DNA of 40,548 bases from an uncultured Gammaproteobacteria bacterium (GTDB lineage: Bacteria; Pseudomonadota; Gammaproteobacteria; Enterobacterales; Psychrobiaceae). Shown in pieces: positions 2,024 through 24,896 of the stretch. The notes under the pieces are model-generated. The model was not told the DNA's origin. It was given only the letters and a program-made list of their open reading frames with translations, and searched no databases. The stretch covers positions 1-40,548 of the forward strand of contig CAJXRU010000024.1 in NCBI GenBank assembly GCA_913060565.1. Reading direction: 5' to 3'. The translations under genes and the position numbers were made by a program. Numbering within the stretch: the stretch's first letter is position 1; every line of letters begins with the position of its first letter.

Positions 2024-5000
2024 GACAACACCTCATCATTAAATAAGGCATCTAACTCTTCAATAAGCGCTTTTGATGGTCGGTTATAGAAAATGCCCTC
2101 ATCTAATTGACTGTTTTTATCCATGCCTCGTAAGAACAGATAAAATACGCCGCCAAAGTGTTGGTCAAAGTCATAATCAGCCATGCGAGACGCCAACAAA
2201 CGGTGTAACGCTAAACTGTAAAGTTGGTATTGAAAGTCGTAGCGATGATCAATCATGGTTTGTGTCATCGCAGCCATTGAGTAATCGTTAATGCTGTCGC
2301 CAAGGTGGTTAGACTTATAATCGAGTACGTAATATTTGCCATCTGCAACAAAGAGTAAATCAATAAAACCTTTGAGCATGCCCTTCACATCATTAAAGTT
2401 TAGTCCGTGAGCTTGCTTTGATAAAGGATCGTGCTTGCCAAGACACTCATTAAGCGCTTGACAATTTAGTGAGGTGATTGGCATAAAAAATTCCATTTCT
2501 ACCTGCTTATCTGCCATCGACAATTGGGATAATTTAAATTGTGGCCCTAAGCTGCCATAATTTAATGGTGTATTTAAAACATTATCAATAAGGCGTTCTA
2601 ACACCCCTTGCCAATGTTCATCAAACTCACTTTCTTCTAATAATTGGATGACTTTATCGCTAAAGACTTGCGAGTTTGATTCACTAAAATCAATTTCTTC
2701 AAATAACGTATGCAAAAACGTACCAGCGTGGGCACCACGGGGAAAACTAAATATCGTTAGTTCTGTTTCTTCATCAAGCAGTGGCTCTTGTACGTTAGCG
2801 AGTGCTTCTTCCCAATCTATCGCCAGCGTTTCAAGACTCGCGTCAACGTCACTAGGCTCATGACTATGGCTTGACTTTGACAATGCAGAATAACTGGTAA
2901 TCCAATAATTATTTTCGATGTCACTATCAAAATGGCGCGCGTTCAACGTTGGCGAATCATCTTGCTGTGTACTTTGAAAAACAGGCATTTGGCTGAGGTT
3001 TGGCGCACTCGTTGTAATGGCTTGATGTGTTGACGCCATTTCATTTAATCGTGCACTTAACTCTTGAGCATTAGTGACGGCGCCGTTTAAATACAGATAA
3101 CCAATAGCGCTATGGTGTAAGTCACTCGTTTTTGCTTTGTTGGCTTGACCGCTTTTAACCGGAGCAAAGCCGAGCCATACATGATGTACAGCACGAGTAA
3201 TCGCAACATAAAACAATCGTAAATCTTCTGCAAGGCGCTCTTTATCAGCGGCCTCAAGTGCTTGTTCACCAAATTTTAAATCAACTAACGTTTGATCGTT
3301 TTGATGATAAATGGGTTCTTTAGTCACTCTAGCACTACAAATAAAGGGTAAAAAGACCAGGTTATACTCAAGGCCCTTTGATTTATGAATAGTGACGATT
3401 TGTACTAAATTTTTGTCTGATTCTAAACGTAATTGCTGCTCTTGGTTTTCTTGTTCAGCGTTGGTCATTTGGTCGCTAAGCCAATGCAGCAATGCGTGCT
3501 CACCAACAATCTCTAAACTTTGCTGCTGTAAAATTTCACCCAAATGCATTAAATCTGTCAATTGACGTTCACCGTCAGCCAATGACAATAACTGGCTAGG
3601 CAATTGATGTTGGTGCATAAATTCACGTAACATTGCTAATACACCAACATGCTGCCAGCGGCCTTGATAATAGTGACACTCATCGACTAATTGTTGCCAA
3701 CGTCGCTCATCGTTGTTCAAGCGTTCTAATTGCTCAAGAGATTGCGCCATTAAGCCTGTCGCCATTGCACTGCGAATTGCACGTCCATCATTTGGATTGG
3801 CAATGGCGTGCAGCACACGCCAACAATCTTTAACGATAACACTGCCAAAAATACTTTGGCGGTTGGACAAATACACACTAGCAATCCCTTGTTGGGCCAG
3901 TTGCGTTTTAACTAATTGCGCTTCACGTCCGGTTCGAACCAAGACAGCAATATCACTAGCTTGTACTGCCACCAGCGATTCATTATTTCTAAAGCCAGCC
4001 TTGCCTTGTTGTCCTTGACTCAGGAGCGTATTAATTTGGTTTGCACAGGCGAGCGCCATTTGGGTCTGATAGTCACTATTAGACACGGTGCCATCACAAG
4101 GCAATAACCACTGCGTAATCGCAGGTTGCTCTTGGTCATCAAGAATAAACGTCGACTTATTGGGCACTGAGTTAACAGGGGTAAAACCGATATCGTCGCG
4201 ATAAATAAAGGGGGCACTTGATTGTTCAAATAAGCTATTAACCCCATCAACCATCATCGGTGTTGAGCGATAATTAGTGCCTAGCGTGTAATGATTTTTT
4301 ACCATTTTACGTGCTTTGATATAGGTGAATATATCAGCGCCGCGAAAACTGTAGATAGCTTGTTTAGGGTCGCCAATCATTAATAAACCCGCGTCACTTT
4401 GCTGGCCATAAATAGTGTTAAAGATCTGATACTGCATCAAGTCCGTGTCTTGAAACTCATCAATCATTGCCAGCGGATATTGTCCGCGTATTTTTTTCGC
4501 TAAGCTATCGGCCTGCACACTGATCTCACCATCAAGTGCGTGGTGTAAATTAGTGAGTAAATCGTCAAAAGATAATAGTGATTGTTGTTTTTTATGATCG
4601 GATACATGAGCGCGAGTATACGCAATAGCTTGCGCTAAAATAGCGGGCTTTAAGTTAATGTCTTGCGCTAAAAACGCATTAACTTGGCTAAAGATATCCA
4701 GTGATGGCGCAGTGCCCTTCTTGGTTTTTTCATGTAATAGCGCGACATCAAACCGTGCTAACGACTCAGGCACAGTGATTGATTGAGTGGATTGTTGCGC
4801 CCATTCGGTAATCAGGCCAATCCATTTAGGCACATTTCGACTGCTATAACTGCGCTTATCGACACCTGACTCTTTGATATGACTTTCAATGTCTTGGTAT
4901 GCCGCTAGCCACTGCTGTTTAAATCGATCTACCGACTGCACAATATCGTTGAGTGATTGTGTTAGTGGCTTATCAGCTAATGGCGCTTGTATTGATAAGT

Positions 5001-14222: not shown

Positions 14223-14289
14223 TTATAGCCTTTTATAGCTAAAAGGACTTAGTCAAATAACGGATATTTGTTAAATGAAGGAATTAGCC

Positions 14290-16422
14290 ATGGAACACCA
14301 GCGACCGAAAATATTACTGGTCGATGACAGACCAGAGAACTTGTTTGCATTGGAGCAAACATTGAAGCCGCTCAATGCTTCTCTCACCCGCGCCATGTCG
14401 GGAGAAGAGGCGTTGTCTCAAGTTCTCCGACAACAATTTGCATTGATCTTAATGGATGTGCAGATGCCAGGCATGGACGGCTTTGAAGCGGTGAGTCTAA
14501 TGCGAGACTATGACGACACCAAAAATGTGCCAGTCATTTTCGTCACCGCAATTTCCAAGGAGCGTCAGTTTGTTGAGCAAGGTTATGAATCAGGCGCGGT
14601 AGATTACTTATTTAAACCCATTGCTCCTGGTGTGCTATTAAGTAAAGTTAAAGTATTTTTGGAGCTTGAAAAACAACGTATTGAACTAGAAGAAGCCGTT
14701 CAACAAAATAGACAAATGGCGGCGCATAACGAAACAGTCCTTGACTGTATCATCGAAGGAATTATTTCATTTAACAGCCGAGGTATTATTGATTGGGCAA
14801 ATCCAACAGCGCTGCGGTTGCTTGGTATGACTCTGCCACAGGTAGCCAAATCAAAGTTATTTGATTTATTTCATCTCGATCAAAACCAACCACCGATTCA
14901 ATGGGACGATTTTACTCAAACTAACGAATCAGGCTCACACGCCCAAATTAGAAACTGTGATTATTTATTAAAACGTCCAGACTGCACCACTTTTCCGGTT
15001 GAATTTTCAATGTCCGGATTCACTGAATACATTCAAGACGGCGGTGTATTTTCATTCCAAGATATTACTGAACGTAAGTGGGCTGAAGATGAGCTTATTC
15101 GTTTGGCACAAGAAGACTCGTTAACCCAATTGCCCAACCGTGCACTCTTCCATGAGTTTTTACGTGTTAGTCTTCAGGAACGAGTGCGTGACAATGGTAA
15201 CTTAGCTTTGCTCATGCTCGACATGGATGACTTTAAACGTGTCAATGACACCTTAGGGCATGATGTTGGTGATAAATTACTACAATCGGTGTCAGCTCGT
15301 TTAGAAGAATGTTTACGCCAAGGTGATTTAGTTGCCCGTCTGGGTGGTGATGAATTTGGCATTATTCTACCTGTAATTAGAAAATCTGATGATGCAGGAC
15401 GCGTTGCTAACAAAGTATTGGAGTCCTTCAAAAAACCTCATCAACTCGGTAGTTACACCCTAACAGTTGGCGCAAGCATTGGCATTACAACCTTCCCTGA
15501 AGGCGGTAAGGACATTAAAGAGTTAGTTAAATCGGCAGATACCGCGATGTATCATGCGAAAGGTACCGGTCGAAACAATTTCCAATTCTTCTCCCGAGAA
15601 ATGCAAGAACGAGTACTTGCAAAAGATACCCTTGAAAAAGAGTTAATTATTGCACTTGAAGAACGTCAATTTGAAAGCCATTACCAACCAAAAATCGCTT
15701 CAAATGGTGACTTAACTGGGTATGAAGCGCTAGTTCGCTGGCAGCACCCTACACGAGGAATGGTATTTCCTGGTGATTTTATCGAGCTTGTCGAAGAAAC
15801 GGGGCTGGTGGTTGAATTGGGCAAACAAATGCTTGAAATGGCCTGCGCCCAAAATAAAAAGTGGATTGATGAAGGCATTGTCGCTGAAAATACGACAGTC
15901 GCGGTCAATGTATCAGTTAGACAACTCAGTGAAAAATCACTGGTAAAAACCATTCAAGACGTATTGGCTCAAACCAATCTACCGCCTGAGTGTTTAGAAG
16001 TGGAAATCACTGAATACACCATGATGAATGATGTCGAGCATGCGATTGTCGTGCTAACACAATTACGTGACTTAGGCGTAAAAATCGCGATTGATGATTT
16101 TGGTACGGGTTATAGCTCACTCACTTATTTATCAAAACTACCACTCAATACATTAAAAGTTGACCAATATTTTGTAAACGGTATTGGCGAAGATCCCGGT
16201 GATGAATCGATTGTAAAAGCCACAATCAATTTGGCCCACAGTTTAAATCTACAAGTGACCGCAGAAGGCGTTGAAACGGATGAACAACGTAAATTCCTCA
16301 TTGCCAACAAAGTCAATTACTTACAAGGGTACTTTTTTTCGAGACCGCAGAGTTCAAGTAATTTAGAGCAATGGATAGTGGAACAAAACTTTTCTAATAT
16401 TCCACAAACGCCGGTTATTTGA
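14290..16422 (+). CDS. Response regulator with PAS, GGDEF and EAL domains (c-di-GMP turnover)
   Basis: A cytoplasmic response regulator of 710 residues that can both make and break c-di-GMP. The receiver (1-120) has VDDR, acceptor Asp56 in LILMDVQMPGMDG, and LFKP. A PAS domain (about 145-260) starts after a short coiled coil. The GGDEF motif at 352-356 is intact and has the inhibitory I-site RQGD at 343-346. The EAL domain (about 455-700) keeps EAL at 479-481, the Asn of NVSVRQL, EITE, DDFGTGYSS, LKVDQYF, AEGVE and QGYFFSRP, so it should be catalytic. The ATG at 14290 has AAGGA 7 nt upstream; an upstream ATG at 14275 overlaps that site and is less likely. It is probably the output of the kinase at 9336, given the shared operon. 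The net enzyme direction cannot be told from sequence. Confidence 0.92.
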   Translation: MEHQRPKILLVDDRPENLFALEQTLKPLNASLTRAMSGEEALSQVLRQQFALILMDVQMPGMDGFEAVSLMRDYDDTKNVPVIFVTAISKERQFVEQGYESGAVDYLFKPIAPGVLLSKVKVFLELEKQRIELEEAVQQNRQMAAHNETVLDCIIEGIISFNSRGIIDWANPTALRLLGMTLPQVAKSKLFDLFHLDQNQPPIQWDDFTQTNESGSHAQIRNCDYLLKRPDCTTFPVEFSMSGFTEYIQDGGVFSFQDITERKWAEDELIRLAQEDSLTQLPNRALFHEFLRVSLQERVRDNGNLALLMLDMDDFKRVNDTLGHDVGDKLLQSVSARLEECLRQGDLVARLGGDEFGIILPVIRKSDDAGRVANKVLESFKKPHQLGSYTLTVGASIGITTFPEGGKDIKELVKSADTAMYHAKGTGRNNFQFFSREMQERVLAKDTLEKELIIALEERQFESHYQPKIASNGDLTGYEALVRWQHPTRGMVFPGDFIELVEETGLVVELGKQMLEMACAQNKKWIDEGIVAENTTVAVNVSVRQLSEKSLVKTIQDVLAQTNLPPECLEVEITEYTMMNDVEHAIVVLTQLRDLGVKIAIDDFGTGYSSLTYLSKLPLNTLKVDQYFVNGIGEDPGDESIVKATINLAHSLNLQVTAEGVETDEQRKFLIANKVNYLQGYFFSRPQSSSNLEQWIVEQNFSNIPQTPVI

Positions 16423-20592: not shown

Positions 20593-20676
20593 TATGCGTT
20601 TCGTACTAAAAATAATAATAGACACCAGTAATCTAGAGAGATGATTATTCGCGTGTCTCACAAGGAAATTAATAAT

Positions 20677-22503
20677 ATGTCTAGCAAATTATTAAAAACC
20701 TCGTTAGCAATTCTCCCGCTAACGATTTCACTAAACATTGCCGCCAAAGGTAATGATCCACTAACCCAACAACAATGGCATTTAAAAAATAAAGGGCAAG
20801 CAGCATTCTCTGCGGCCGGTGGTGTCAAAGGCAGTGATCTAAATGTTCGAACAGCCCATAAAAAGGGCATTAAAGGCCAAGGCGTCAAAGTCACCGTAAT
20901 CGATACAGGCGTAGAAATTGCCCATAAAGATTTAGCGGCTAATATCACGAGTGGCTCAAGAAACCTTGTTGATGGGACTAATGATCCCGTTGACGATAAT
21001 GGACACGGCACAGCAGTAGCCGGAATAATTGCAGCGGTTGGTTATAACAACGAAGGTGTTCGTGGTATCGCCCCTAGCGCAAAAATTAATGGCTTCAACT
21101 TTTTAAGTGAACAAAGCTTAACCTCATACCTTGCCTCACATGGCGAGAGTGAAGGAACTAAAGATTCAAACGTGTTTAATCAAAGCTACGGTGGTGGAGA
21201 TATATTCCCAAGAGCTTACGATCTCGAAAACGACTTAGAGTTAGCCATTATAGAATCGAGCATGAAACGCGTTAGCATGAATAATGACAGTGGCCGCGGT
21301 GCGGCATTCGTCAAATCTGCTGGTAATGGTTACAACTGGTTCCGTTATGGTGATTTTGCAATCTTGCCAGGTAACTATTTTAGCGCAAGTGATGATGGCG
21401 AGATCCGCAACGACGGCATGCCAATGGAAAATAGCAATGCCGAAATCTCAGATTCAAATTTCTGGAACATCGTTGTCAGTGCGTTTAACGCATCAGACAA
21501 ACTCTCTAGTTACTCATCGGTTGGCTCTAACGTCTTTATGACGGCAACAGGCGGTGAATTTGGTGAAGATACTCCTGCCATGGTGACCATTGATTTAATG
21601 GGCTGTGATGCAGGATTTAATACCACCAATGAAGAAGCAACCAACAATCTTCATGGCGGAACCGATATTGATCCAACCTGTGACTACACAAGCGTCATGA
21701 ATGGCACATCATCAGCAGCGCCAAGCATGTCAGGCGCAATTGCCATGGTGATGTCTGCCAACAAAAAGATTACAGCCCGTGACGCCAAACATATCTTGGC
21801 TAAAACAGCCTCTAAGGTTGATAAGAAAAACGCAGGTGTTGAATTACCATTCACCGATGCCGACGGCAATGAAGCAACTTATCAAGCAATCGACGGTTGG
21901 AAGAAAAACGGCGCAGGGTATAACTACCACATGTTCTACGGTTTAGGAAAACCTGATGTATCTAAAGCCGTTAGCATGGCCAAGCGTAAAGGTAAAAAGC
22001 AATACAAAAAGTTACCTAAGTTAAAAACAACGCCTTGGATGAACCGCAATACTCACCTTGAAATTCCTGATGCCAACACCACAGGTGCCACTTCGATGTA
22101 CAACGCGAATGTCCATAATAAATTCGTCATTGAAGGTGTACAAGTCAAAGTCGATATTGACCATGCCCGCATGAGTGACTTATCAATTGAGTTAATTTCA
22201 CCAGCAGGCACACGCAGCGTATTAATGACGCCAAAATCAGGGGCATTCCTTGGTCAAAACGCCATTGCGGTACCCATTACCAGCATGCGTGATCAGCTCA
22301 TGTTATCGACTAACTTTTACGGCGAGAAAGCACGTGGTAACTGGCGCTTAAAAGTTGTTGATGTTGGCGGTGAAGGTGACGGAGAGTGGTTGCTATTTGA
22401 TTTAGCCACTGGCGAGCAAACACCTATGTCACCAGATAATAACTCAGAGCCTGGCGCTTTAACCAATTGGTCAATTCGCTTCTTCGGTCATCAAGGAAAA
22501 TAA
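20677..22503 (+). CDS. Secreted kexin-like S8 serine protease with P domain, no propeptide (ASP type)
   Basis: A 608-residue secreted subtilase. A signal peptide (MSSKLLKTSLAILPLTIS..., cleavage after IAA near 23) is followed almost at once by NDPLTQQQWHLKNKGQ and the S8 catalytic domain. The triad is Asp76 (VIDTGVEI), His110 (DDNGHGTAVAGI) and Ser345 (NGTSSAAPSMSG); AGNG marks the oxyanion region. The C-terminal part (about 455-608) is a P/Homo-B domain, as in kexin and furin. Only about 50 residues separate the signal peptide from Asp76, so there is no room for the usual I9 propeptide. The architecture and length match ASP of Aeromonas sobria (about 624 residues), a propeptide-deficient protease that needs the product of the next gene to mature. 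The ATG at 20677 has AAGGA 10 nt upstream; an in-frame ATG at 20641 would spoil the signal peptide. Confidence 0.93.
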   Translation: MSSKLLKTSLAILPLTISLNIAAKGNDPLTQQQWHLKNKGQAAFSAAGGVKGSDLNVRTAHKKGIKGQGVKVTVIDTGVEIAHKDLAANITSGSRNLVDGTNDPVDDNGHGTAVAGIIAAVGYNNEGVRGIAPSAKINGFNFLSEQSLTSYLASHGESEGTKDSNVFNQSYGGGDIFPRAYDLENDLELAIIESSMKRVSMNNDSGRGAAFVKSAGNGYNWFRYGDFAILPGNYFSASDDGEIRNDGMPMENSNAEISDSNFWNIVVSAFNASDKLSSYSSVGSNVFMTATGGEFGEDTPAMVTIDLMGCDAGFNTTNEEATNNLHGGTDIDPTCDYTSVMNGTSSAAPSMSGAIAMVMSANKKITARDAKHILAKTASKVDKKNAGVELPFTDADGNEATYQAIDGWKKNGAGYNYHMFYGLGKPDVSKAVSMAKRKGKKQYKKLPKLKTTPWMNRNTHLEIPDANTTGATSMYNANVHNKFVIEGVQVKVDIDHARMSDLSIELISPAGTRSVLMTPKSGAFLGQNAIAVPITSMRDQLMLSTNFYGEKARGNWRLKVVDVGGEGDGEWLLFDLATGEQTPMSPDNNSEPGALTNWSIRFFGHQGK

Positions 22504-22505
22504 TT

Positions 22506-22997
22506 ATGAAAAAAATTACATTATTAGCAGCTAGCGCACTTATGAGTGCCACCGTCATGGCCAGCGACCTACCGCAACTTAGCAACAGTGAATTGGCCAC
22601 CACAAACGTGACGGTTGGCTCAGTAGAAATCAATGGTGTTAAGTTTAATAAAGTGGTGTCAAACAGTGCTTTAGTAAACAACACTATGATGTCTCAACGC
22701 TCTTTTCAACCGGGGCTTTATCAAGGTGATTTGTTACAGCGAAACAAAATAAGTGCCGTAGAACGAGTGAGCGGAAATTTATTGATTTCCACGTCAAATA
22801 TGTCGAAGTTGCAAGCATTGGCTAAAGCTCACAACCTTGAGGTTCACTCTACGTATGGCAACATCGCTATATTAAAAGCGCCCTTGGGTAGTGAATTGTT
22901 ATCAACAATGAGCGCATTACGTGCGGCTGATGCTCAAACAGGCACCGTTAAGCGAATTAACTTAGAACGCATTTCAAATACATTACGTCCTGAGTAA
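22506..22997 (+). CDS. Small secreted protein, probable external chaperone of the protease (ORF2 type)
   Basis: A 163-residue protein with a clear Sec signal peptide, MKKITLLAASALMSATVMA, cleaved before Ser20. The mature part has an N-terminal stretch of about 60 residues and a compact segment (about 88-145) with VSGNLLISTSNMSKLQALAKAHN and AILKAPLGSELLSTMSALR. That segment's strand-helix-strand pattern is like subtilase propeptides. It ends in a short basic tail, TVKRINLERISNTLRPE. The start is 2 bp after the protease stop and its AAGGA lies inside the protease gene, so the two are coupled. The place, size and secretion match ORF2 of A. sobria, which folds ASP in the periplasm. The assignment rests mainly on context; I do not see strong motif identity. 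Confidence 0.72.
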   Translation: MKKITLLAASALMSATVMASDLPQLSNSELATTNVTVGSVEINGVKFNKVVSNSALVNNTMMSQRSFQPGLYQGDLLQRNKISAVERVSGNLLISTSNMSKLQALAKAHNLEVHSTYGNIAILKAPLGSELLSTMSALRAADAQTGTVKRINLERISNTLRPE

Positions 22998-23015
22998 TCA
23001 TTACCTTCCACAGCA

Positions 23016-23041
23016 AAACGCATCATTTGATGCGTTTTTTT
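23016..23041 (+). terminator. Terminator of the protease-chaperone operon
   Basis: AAACGCATCA (23016-23025) pairs with TGATGCGTTT (23028-23037) and runs into seven T. A strong intrinsic terminator 18 bp after the stop. Confidence 0.88.
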
Positions 23042-23138
23042 ATGCAGTAAACATCAACTTCAATGCTATTCACATCACAAAATGGTAAACCGCTTATAAG
23101 AAAAAAGAGTGATTTATCACCAATTGAACCATCATTAA

Positions 23139-23225: not shown

Positions 23226-24896
23226 ATGCTAGCGACCCCAATAATGAATAACGTTGAACAAATGTTACTACCGTCTATCACGGTAAAAAATGGGGTATTA
23301 AAAGGATGTAATACCGTATTTAGTGAGCGTTTCGGCTATCAAGCCCAAATGCTTAGTGGTTATCAACTGAAAGATCTACTGACCTTTGATAGTGTAAACG
23401 CTCAAAGTTATTCAACGATTGAATGGCTAATGCAACATATTAATGAACCACAACACGGTTTATTAAAAAATCGCCACTACTACGAACTCCCTGTTGAAGT
23501 TGTATGCCAACGTTCAACGGTTGACGAATCGTGTTATGACGTATTTTTTAGAGTGCTCGAAGACAAATCCATTGATAGCGTGACAGGCCTACCTAATGGT
23601 TGGGCAATGAGCTGTCGCGCGAACCATTTACTCACGTTACCCCCCAAGAAAGCACCGCAACTAGCAGTGATTATTTTTAGAGTCGATAACTTTTCAACGC
23701 TAAACTTTCGCCAAGGTTATAACGTTGGTGATGAATACCTAGAAACCCTTGGTAAAAAACTCGTTGCCTTGTTTGGTGATGACTACCTCGTCGTGCGATT
23801 TTCCAATGCAAAGTTCGGCATCTTAGTAGAAGATCATCAACACGTATCAAAAGTTGATTTTGAAACGCTAGTAACCAATAAATGCCAAGCAATTTGTGAC
23901 ATGACCAAACACCCCATGCAACTTTCTGACAACGTGAACGTGCATAAAAGTTTCAGTGTTGGTGTCAGTGAACTTACCGCCAAATATTCTAGCTATTTTG
24001 CAATGGAAATTGCCACTGAAACAGCAATGCATCAAGCAGCAAAATTTAGTAATTCCAAGTTTATATTCGCCACCAGCGAATTAACCAACAAATTATTGAT
24101 GCGTAAACTAATTATCGATGACTTTCCGCAAGCCATCGCCAAACAGCAGATAACACAACATTATCAGCCGCAATATTGCTTAGCCTCCAAAAAATTAATG
24201 GGACTCGAAGCGCTTTCACGCTGGCATCACAAAGAGCTGAGTCATATATCCCCTGCTTTTTTTGCGTCTATCGCAGAAGATATCGGACTCAATTTTGAAT
24301 TTGACCTCTACGTATTACGACAAGTATGCCAACAGGTAAAAACATGGCTTGATGACGGATTTAATGTGCCACGTGTATCAGTCAATGTTTCATTCAAGTC
24401 TTTAGAAATGCCTGAATTTGTAAAGCGTGTAACACAAATTATCGACACCAGCGCCTGCCCTGCAAATTTAATTGAAATTGAAGTGACTGAAACCACTAGT
24501 ATCAACAACATTAACAACCTTATTAACCATGTACGCCAAGTTAAAGCGCTAGGTATTCACATTGCTATAGATGACTTCGGTGTTGGCTACTCATCACTGA
24601 GTCTCATACGTCGGTTACACAATGTTATCGACAAACTTAAGTTAGACAAAAGCCTTATCGACAACCTTTGTCACGCACAAATTGACCAAGAGTTTATTCG
24701 ACACATTATCGAACTCGGTAATGTTCTTGGGCTTGATGTACTCGCCGAGGGTATTGAACATCACGACCAACAGTCCTTATTGCAGCAATTAGGCTGTAAA
24801 TTCGGTCAAGGTTATTTCTTTGAAAAACCACAGCCACCAGCACAGATTGTAAGCTACTTAGAGAATTACCAGCAACAAGTTGTGTTAAAACAATAG
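23226..24896 (+). CDS. c-di-GMP phosphodiesterase with PAS-like, degenerate GGDEF and active-type EAL domains
   Basis: A cytoplasmic protein of 556 residues. A short PAS-like N-terminus (about 10-110, ...SERFGYQAQMLSGYQLKDLL) is followed by a GGDEF fold starting DSVTGLPNGWAM. Its signature is SNAKF at 193-197 instead of GGDEF, so it should not make c-di-GMP; it may be an allosteric domain. The EAL domain is complete: EAL at 328-330, the Asn of SVNVSFKSL, EVTET, DDFGVGYSS, LKLDKSLI, AEGIE and GQGYFFEKP. It should hydrolyse c-di-GMP. No membrane segment is seen. The ATG at 23226 has no clear Shine-Dalgarno; ATGs at 23244 and 23262 are also possible starts. It is a single-gene unit behind a good promoter. 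Confidence 0.9.
   Translation: MLATPIMNNVEQMLLPSITVKNGVLKGCNTVFSERFGYQAQMLSGYQLKDLLTFDSVNAQSYSTIEWLMQHINEPQHGLLKNRHYYELPVEVVCQRSTVDESCYDVFFRVLEDKSIDSVTGLPNGWAMSCRANHLLTLPPKKAPQLAVIIFRVDNFSTLNFRQGYNVGDEYLETLGKKLVALFGDDYLVVRFSNAKFGILVEDHQHVSKVDFETLVTNKCQAICDMTKHPMQLSDNVNVHKSFSVGVSELTAKYSSYFAMEIATETAMHQAAKFSNSKFIFATSELTNKLLMRKLIIDDFPQAIAKQQITQHYQPQYCLASKKLMGLEALSRWHHKELSHISPAFFASIAEDIGLNFEFDLYVLRQVCQQVKTWLDDGFNVPRVSVNVSFKSLEMPEFVKRVTQIIDTSACPANLIEIEVTETTSINNINNLINHVRQVKALGIHIAIDDFGVGYSSLSLIRRLHNVIDKLKLDKSLIDNLCHAQIDQEFIRHIIELGNVLGLDVLAEGIEHHDQQSLLQQLGCKFGQGYFFEKPQPPAQIVSYLENYQQQVVLKQ

Follow-up and report, generated by a model that had tools for sequence, protein, structure and literature searches.

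The closest known relative of the locus studied here is the asp-orf2 system of Aeromonas sobria, in which a propeptide-less S8 serine protease with a P domain (ASP) is encoded directly upstream of a secreted protein, ORF2 (PDB entries 3hjr, 3wqb and 2mk4; Pfam PF18492). PMC5638518 reports that ORF2 is needed to obtain mature ASP and that it also inhibits ASP with an IC50 of 84.3 nM; the terminal Lys of ORF2 is placed at the catalytic Ser of the protease, and its third-last residue, Gln, near Arg566. The introduction of the same paper, citing a 2015 structure paper, mentions asp-orf2 operons of this layout in Vibrio, Shewanella, Chromobacterium and Pseudoalteromonas, located by PSI-BLAST with ORF2. 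A 2022 survey of subtilases refers to ASP in one passage as the exception to the rule of an N-terminal propeptide and in another as one of two propeptide-less subtilases (PMC9549277).

Results

A two-gene unit with an ASP-like protease and an ORF2-type protein

The window, i.e., the whole stretch of 40,548 nucleotides analyzed from an uncultured Gammaproteobacteria bacterium, contains the intact frames of a protease and of a small protein at the positions listed in Table 1. The protease frame ends with the TAA at 22501–22503 and the ATG of the small protein starts at 22506, with two bases between them. The ATG at 20677 was preferred over the one at 20641 as the protease start because of the ribosome site placed shortly before the former. 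Downstream of the pair there is a likely intrinsic terminator, a hairpin followed by a T run, which was absent from the list produced by the terminator scan; the promoter-like sites of that scan were no more than those that shuffled sequences yield. The intact frames, the two-base gap, the ribosome site internal to the first gene, the invariant catalytic residues and the hairpin, taken together, mean that the two genes are a two-gene unit and not a chance neighborhood. GGDEF-EAL proteins are encoded on both sides of the pair at some distance (14275–16422 and 23226–24896), and the other neighbors in the window are an enoyl-CoA reductase, an aminotransferase, an aldehyde dehydrogenase, a TetR-type regulator, a DUF1294 protein and a ketoacyl synthase.

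Table 1. Positions of the features of the protease–ORF2 locus in the window.
Feature	Position	Strand	Basis
AAGGA ribosome site of the protease gene	20662..20666	+	Read in the sequence
ASP-like serine protease, 608 aa; S8 domain, P domain, signal peptide by eye, no propeptide	20677..22503	+	Pfam and PDB matches
Catalytic Asp76 codon (role by homology)	20902..20904	+	Invariant in 157/157
Catalytic His110 codon (role by homology)	21004..21006	+	Invariant in 157/157
Oxyanion-hole Asn217 codon (role by homology)	21325..21327	+	Invariant in 157/157
Catalytic Ser345 codon (role by homology)	21709..21711	+	Invariant in 157/157
P domain, residues 485–570	22129..22386	+	Pfam PF01483 P_proprotein, 9.1e-18, above cut-off
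AAGGA ribosome site of the putative chaperone gene, inside the last protease codons	22493..22497	+	Read in the sequence
Putative ORF2-type external chaperone, 163 aa, signal peptide by eye	22506..22997	+	PF18492, PDB 3wqb_B, AlphaFold2 model
Last five residues of the putative chaperone, ending Arg-Pro-Glu; expected in the protease active site	22980..22994	+	Homology with ASP-ORF2
Likely intrinsic terminator, hairpin and T run	23016..23041	+	z −4.95 versus shuffles for 23000–23050

Concerning the protease, the Pfam scan gave, besides the P domain, a Peptidase_S8 domain at residues 67–383 (E 5.6e-38, above cut-off), no I9 propeptide, and a 16-residue match to Peptidase_S8_N that was far below cut-off (14 versus 30.5 bits). 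The closest solved relatives were the A. sobria ASP chains 3hjr_A and 3wqb_A, aligned with E about 1e-145 over residues 24–606 of the 608, and they were followed by furin and kexin, with values from 1e-26 to 1e-24. On the ASP side, this alignment begins at chain residue 26, which leaves the protease of the window without space for a propeptide; about 50 residues separate the signal peptide, with its boundary set by eye, from Asp76. The catalytic triad is intact, and its three residues and that of the oxyanion hole, with roles assigned by homology, are invariant in 157 distinct aligned relatives, the set left from 187 pairs after discarding fragments shorter than 500 aa and identical rows. The protease thus has the S8 domain, the P domain and the lack of a propeptide after the signal peptide that characterize ASP-ORF2-type enzymes, as had been read from the DNA in the original prediction.

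The product of 22506–22997 is, by its sequence, an ORF2 homologue. It matched PF18492 (ORF_2_N) with 67.8 bits versus a cut-off of 29.2 (E 1.3e-18), the ORF2 chains 3wqb_B and 2mk4_A with about 1e-5 in the sequence comparison with PDB, and not I9 in Pfam. So, the predicted secreted protein of 163 residues, encoded 2 bp downstream of the protease with its ribosome site inside the protease gene, was found as described beforehand, and the likeness of the layout to ASP-ORF2 has become one of homology in both proteins. An AlphaFold2 model computed with 39 aligned sequences (mean pLDDT 83.7, pTM 0.71) predicts in the C-terminal half, at residues 86–157, a strand, a helix, two strands, a helix and a strand in succession; the tail that comes after them has low confidence, and its last block was poorly modeled (pLDDT 58). 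This predicted beta-alpha-beta-beta-alpha-beta order is that of I9 propeptides. Subtilisin and kexin share the protease fold with the enzyme of the window, but in them the I9 propeptide is present in cis, whereas here the putative chaperone is the product of a separate gene.

There are also differences from the A. sobria system. The protease of the window is 44% identical to the homologue of A. sobria CECT 4245 (L247) and lacks the N-terminal extension with two cysteines of the Aeromonas homologues. In the alignment, Arg566 of ASP corresponds to Leu576, and the Gln-Pro-Lys end of A. sobria ORF2, as given in the text of PMC5638518, is replaced by Arg-Pro-Glu. The basic ORF2 end and the Arg566 contact of the A. 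sobria type are thus absent from the pair of the window; this trait varies across the family and does not define it.

Co-occurrence of the protease and ORF2 genes

The association of both genes was studied from either side. Starting from the protease, with the count made on the best 80 of 546 relatives, so that remoter proteases lie outside it, an ORF2 gene was found directly downstream in 78 of the 80 loci; in the other two, either the protease frame is broken, with ORF2 behind it (L272), or the contig ends just past a shortened frame (L278). Starting from ORF2, 117 regions matched by PF18492 were collected from the window genome and from the family, order, related-family and Shewanella samples. 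The profile used to find ORF2-like genes in them was iterated on these very loci; it gave 115 such genes in 114 of the regions, while the three without an ORF2-like frame (L062, L185 and L187) came from matches below the Pfam cut-off. An ASP-like S8 protease precedes 109 of the 115 genes, at a median gap of 10 nt (from −50 to +40 nt in 103 of the 109). The protease and ORF2 genes hardly ever part, as these counts show, and the co-occurrence that the original prediction proposed as a check is now documented in both directions.

In the 157 distinct pairs, the identity matrices of protease and ORF2 were correlated with r 0.85, a value not equaled in any of 999 permutations, and ORF2 diverged much faster than the protease (median identity 0.19 versus 0.44). 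No I9 domain was seen by eye in 34 protease N-termini inspected, nor by Pfam in three of these.

Distribution and a second pair in the same genome

A second complete pair occurs on another contig of the window genome (G000:C125, L044); its protease shares 73% identity with that of the window, and it has an ORF2 of its own. The tail of this second putative chaperone ends in Gln-Pro-Glu, and its protease has Arg at the position of Arg566. Matches to PF18492 were found in three of nine genomes of the window's family, all of one genus, in 40 of 394 sampled from the order and in one of 369 sampled from the class, which was the window's own; in focused samples, they were found in 42 of 246 genomes of one related family and in 36 of 117 Shewanella genomes (name inferred). 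The best 80 of 546 protease relatives include Vibrio, Photobacterium, Chromobacterium, Pseudoalteromonas, Salinivibrio, Moritella, Marinibactrum and a Saccharospirillaceae MAG. The window is an added genus for asp-orf2 pairs. The idea that this solution extends beyond the aeromonads was right, but it is not new, because asp-orf2 operons of four further genera were already published, as the introduction of PMC5638518 records. The protease was matched at E ≤1e-60 in two of 72,556 plasmid records, both predicted to be non-mobilizable.

Many asp-orf2 relatives, among them the Shewanella and related proteases, show a signal of the lipoprotein type and an additional stretch ahead of the protease domain, neither of which is present in the window form. 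The stretch is cadherin/Ig-like in L061 and, weakly, in L032 (Pfam), and 66 of 108 proteases have a loose lipobox pattern no farther than residue 60, a count as approximate as the pattern itself. Each frame was opened at the first start codon that follows a stop, so the lengths of N-termini and any small overlaps are approximate.

The ORF2 tail and the S1 pocket

The last residue of ORF2 is of 12 types among the 157 distinct pairs, distributed by clade (Gln, Glu, Lys, Asn, Arg, Met, His, Tyr and others), with Lys or Arg in 35. Co-variation was analyzed by corrected mutual information (440 × 116 columns, weighted number of sequences 74), and the top protease–ORF2 couplings lay away from the tail and the pocket. 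With all residue types, the last ORF2 residue ranked 5th of 116 columns for protease region 244–260 and 10th for 169–178, and the sixth-last ranked 1st for 564–588; with grouped types, these ranks dropped to 90th, 89th and 13th, respectively. In raw counts, an acidic residue at position 256 accompanies 32 of 35 Lys/Arg tails versus 44 of 122 other tails. When disjoint pairs of unlike tail class were compared, the class at 256 stayed the same in all five of the closest (0.68–0.88 identity; two of the five are one lineage); of the 25 listed among 35 such pairs, 14 show a change of class at 256, and these 14 come from two lineages (Aeromonas and the L271/L273/L274 group). Positions 175 and 256, which we take to be the S1 residues of furin, are both acidic in the window genus, where the tail ends in Glu, so a simple P1-mimic reading does not explain this genus. 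The signal being mixed, with a weak hint confounded by descent, a read-out of protease specificity from the tail is not claimed.

ORF2-like lipoproteins encoded next to M36 metallopeptidases

The six ORF2-like genes of the 115 without an ASP-like neighbor lie outside the window. They encode lipoproteins, as judged by eye, match PF18492 below cut-off (E 9e-6 to 4e-4) and all adjoin the gene of an M36 metallopeptidase with a PA domain, including L158 and also L186, where it appears on the other side in the wider stretch L361. Finding the small protein without the protease would have told against the original prediction; distant ORF2-like proteins without an ASP neighbor do exist, but those examined belong to this separate lipoprotein branch. 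The profile of the six (A2) aligned with ASP-linked ORF2 with 97% probability over 86 columns, and a 12-member profile (A5), whose alignment takes in most of the folded part, did so with 97.6% over 95 columns.

Searching 394 genomes with A2 gave 20 matches. Eight were strong (E <1e-11), two of them members of the query, and seven of the eight have an M36 gene close by, the one in G442 having none. Nine of the 12 weaker matches were ASP-linked ORF2 genes found earlier with PF18492, so that the A2 and PF18492 profiles find each other; the other three were in G400, G463 and G581. The same branch was sought with A5 in 74 Pseudoalteromonas genomes (name inferred), with 33 matches, of which 16 were strong (E <1e-13; two query members). 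All 16 are divergent from a gene whose product is 44–100% identical to the M36 proteins of the set, as compared over the N-terminal part contained in the 1.5-kb flank. Loci were available for 14 of the 17 weaker matches: seven were ASP-linked ORF2 genes and seven had neither neighbor, most of these being matches close to the lipoprotein signal. Altogether, 26 of 27 distinct loci are beside M36, mostly in divergent orientation, or 20 of 21 outside the first six; the exception is L334. The loci of the branch are L329–L333, L339, L348, L357–L361 and L362–L377, with L362 and L363 repeating L357 and L358.

Two of these loci deserve separate description. In the Shewanella genome G720, transposase-like ORFs, identified by eye, are placed between the M36 and the ORF2-like lipoprotein genes (L333, 2881–4046), and L334 holds a lone ORF2-like lipoprotein gene without M36 neighbor (3848–4360) in genome G442, for which no M36 match was listed.

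In the opposite direction, most M36 genes in the sample are without a detectable partner: a lipoprotein was detectable in eight of 29 strong M36 loci, in one of them weakly (L339, E 0.0017), and three of the 21 partnerless loci touch a contig end (in L336, L350 and L356). The branch occurs in three of nine genomes of the window's genus (G371, G372 and G375), and the window genome gave neither an M36 nor an A2 match in the profile search. The M36 catalytic domain starts around residue 330–350 both when the partner is present (L329, L332 and L333) and when it was not found (L335, L337 and L340), from which it follows that the lipoprotein is not a mere stand-in for a propeptide; our guess is that it acts as an inhibitor or guard.

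In NCBIfam, the M36 protein of L329, the one tested, is of the rhombosortase-dependent type, and none of four M36-linked lipoproteins tested had a match over cut-off. Nothing on an M36-linked ORF2-type lipoprotein appeared among the open-licence papers listed, as judged by titles and abstract openings. A family of 198-residue lipoproteins, represented in L379, L388 and L391 (1078–1674), is weakly matched in its N-terminal part by the M36-linked profile.

Discussion

The pair of the window can be assigned with high confidence to the asp-orf2 operons, in which a separate chaperone would take the place of the propeptide, as in ASP-ORF2. According to this mechanism, the protease would be exported without a propeptide, and ORF2, translated from the same message, would be exported too; ORF2 would bind the nascent protease in the periplasm, offering it in trans a propeptide-like folding surface and laying its C-terminal tail in the active site, and the protease would fold and stay silent until ORF2 is removed or digested. 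The identities of the genes, the absence of a propeptide domain and the co-occurrence were observed here, and the secondary structure order of ORF2 was predicted, while the need for the chaperone, the formation of a complex and the inhibition by the tail would be extended to this pair from the A. sobria work. The low identity of ORF2, the differing ASP-ORF2 contact residues and the absent cysteine-bearing N-terminal extension were counted against an ASP-like mechanism. Even so, the replacement of the propeptide in trans, proposed in the original prediction, is supported as the likely mechanism by homology and by a nearly exceptionless co-occurrence.

It could be thought that ORF2 is chiefly an inhibitor that guards the periplasm, with a secondary role in folding, the protease being able to mature slowly alone. 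The nanomolar inhibition of mature ASP by A. sobria ORF2 mentioned above would agree with this, and so would the constant start of the M36 catalytic domain, which fits inhibition better than propeptide replacement. However, the window protease has no propeptide domain in Pfam, ORF2 is almost never missing beside the protease, and in A. sobria it is required for the mature form, as reported in the text of PMC5638518, so we consider a mainly inhibitory role unlikely. Far less probable still is that the protease matures by itself, using the 50 or so residues ahead of Asp76 as a mini-propeptide, and that the two genes are paired for no more than common regulation: in the crystal entries, the N-terminal residues of the ASP chain align with this stretch, which thus belongs to the mature enzyme, and the regular presence of ORF2 behind the best protease relatives also speaks against it. 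The chaperone reading is therefore retained: the pair is a known arrangement that very likely works as ASP-ORF2 does.

Concerning the family as a whole, it seems rather probable that ORF2-type proteins, as protease partners acting in trans, make up a superfamily of two branches, one of soluble chaperones of propeptide-less ASP and another of lipoproteins beside M36 fungalysin-type zinc proteases. The pair of the window is one more case of a way of folding proteases that is published but little studied, namely a separate chaperone gene in place of a propeptide, and the M36 branch is the part worth following beyond the pair itself. If the two-branch reading is true, one propeptide-like module would serve two unrelated catalytic classes, as a foldase and as a membrane-tethered inhibitor or guard. 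If the lipoproteins do act on M36, this would be a case of one propeptide-like module taken up by different catalytic classes, and a testable role would fall to the unnamed lipoproteins near marine M36 genes.
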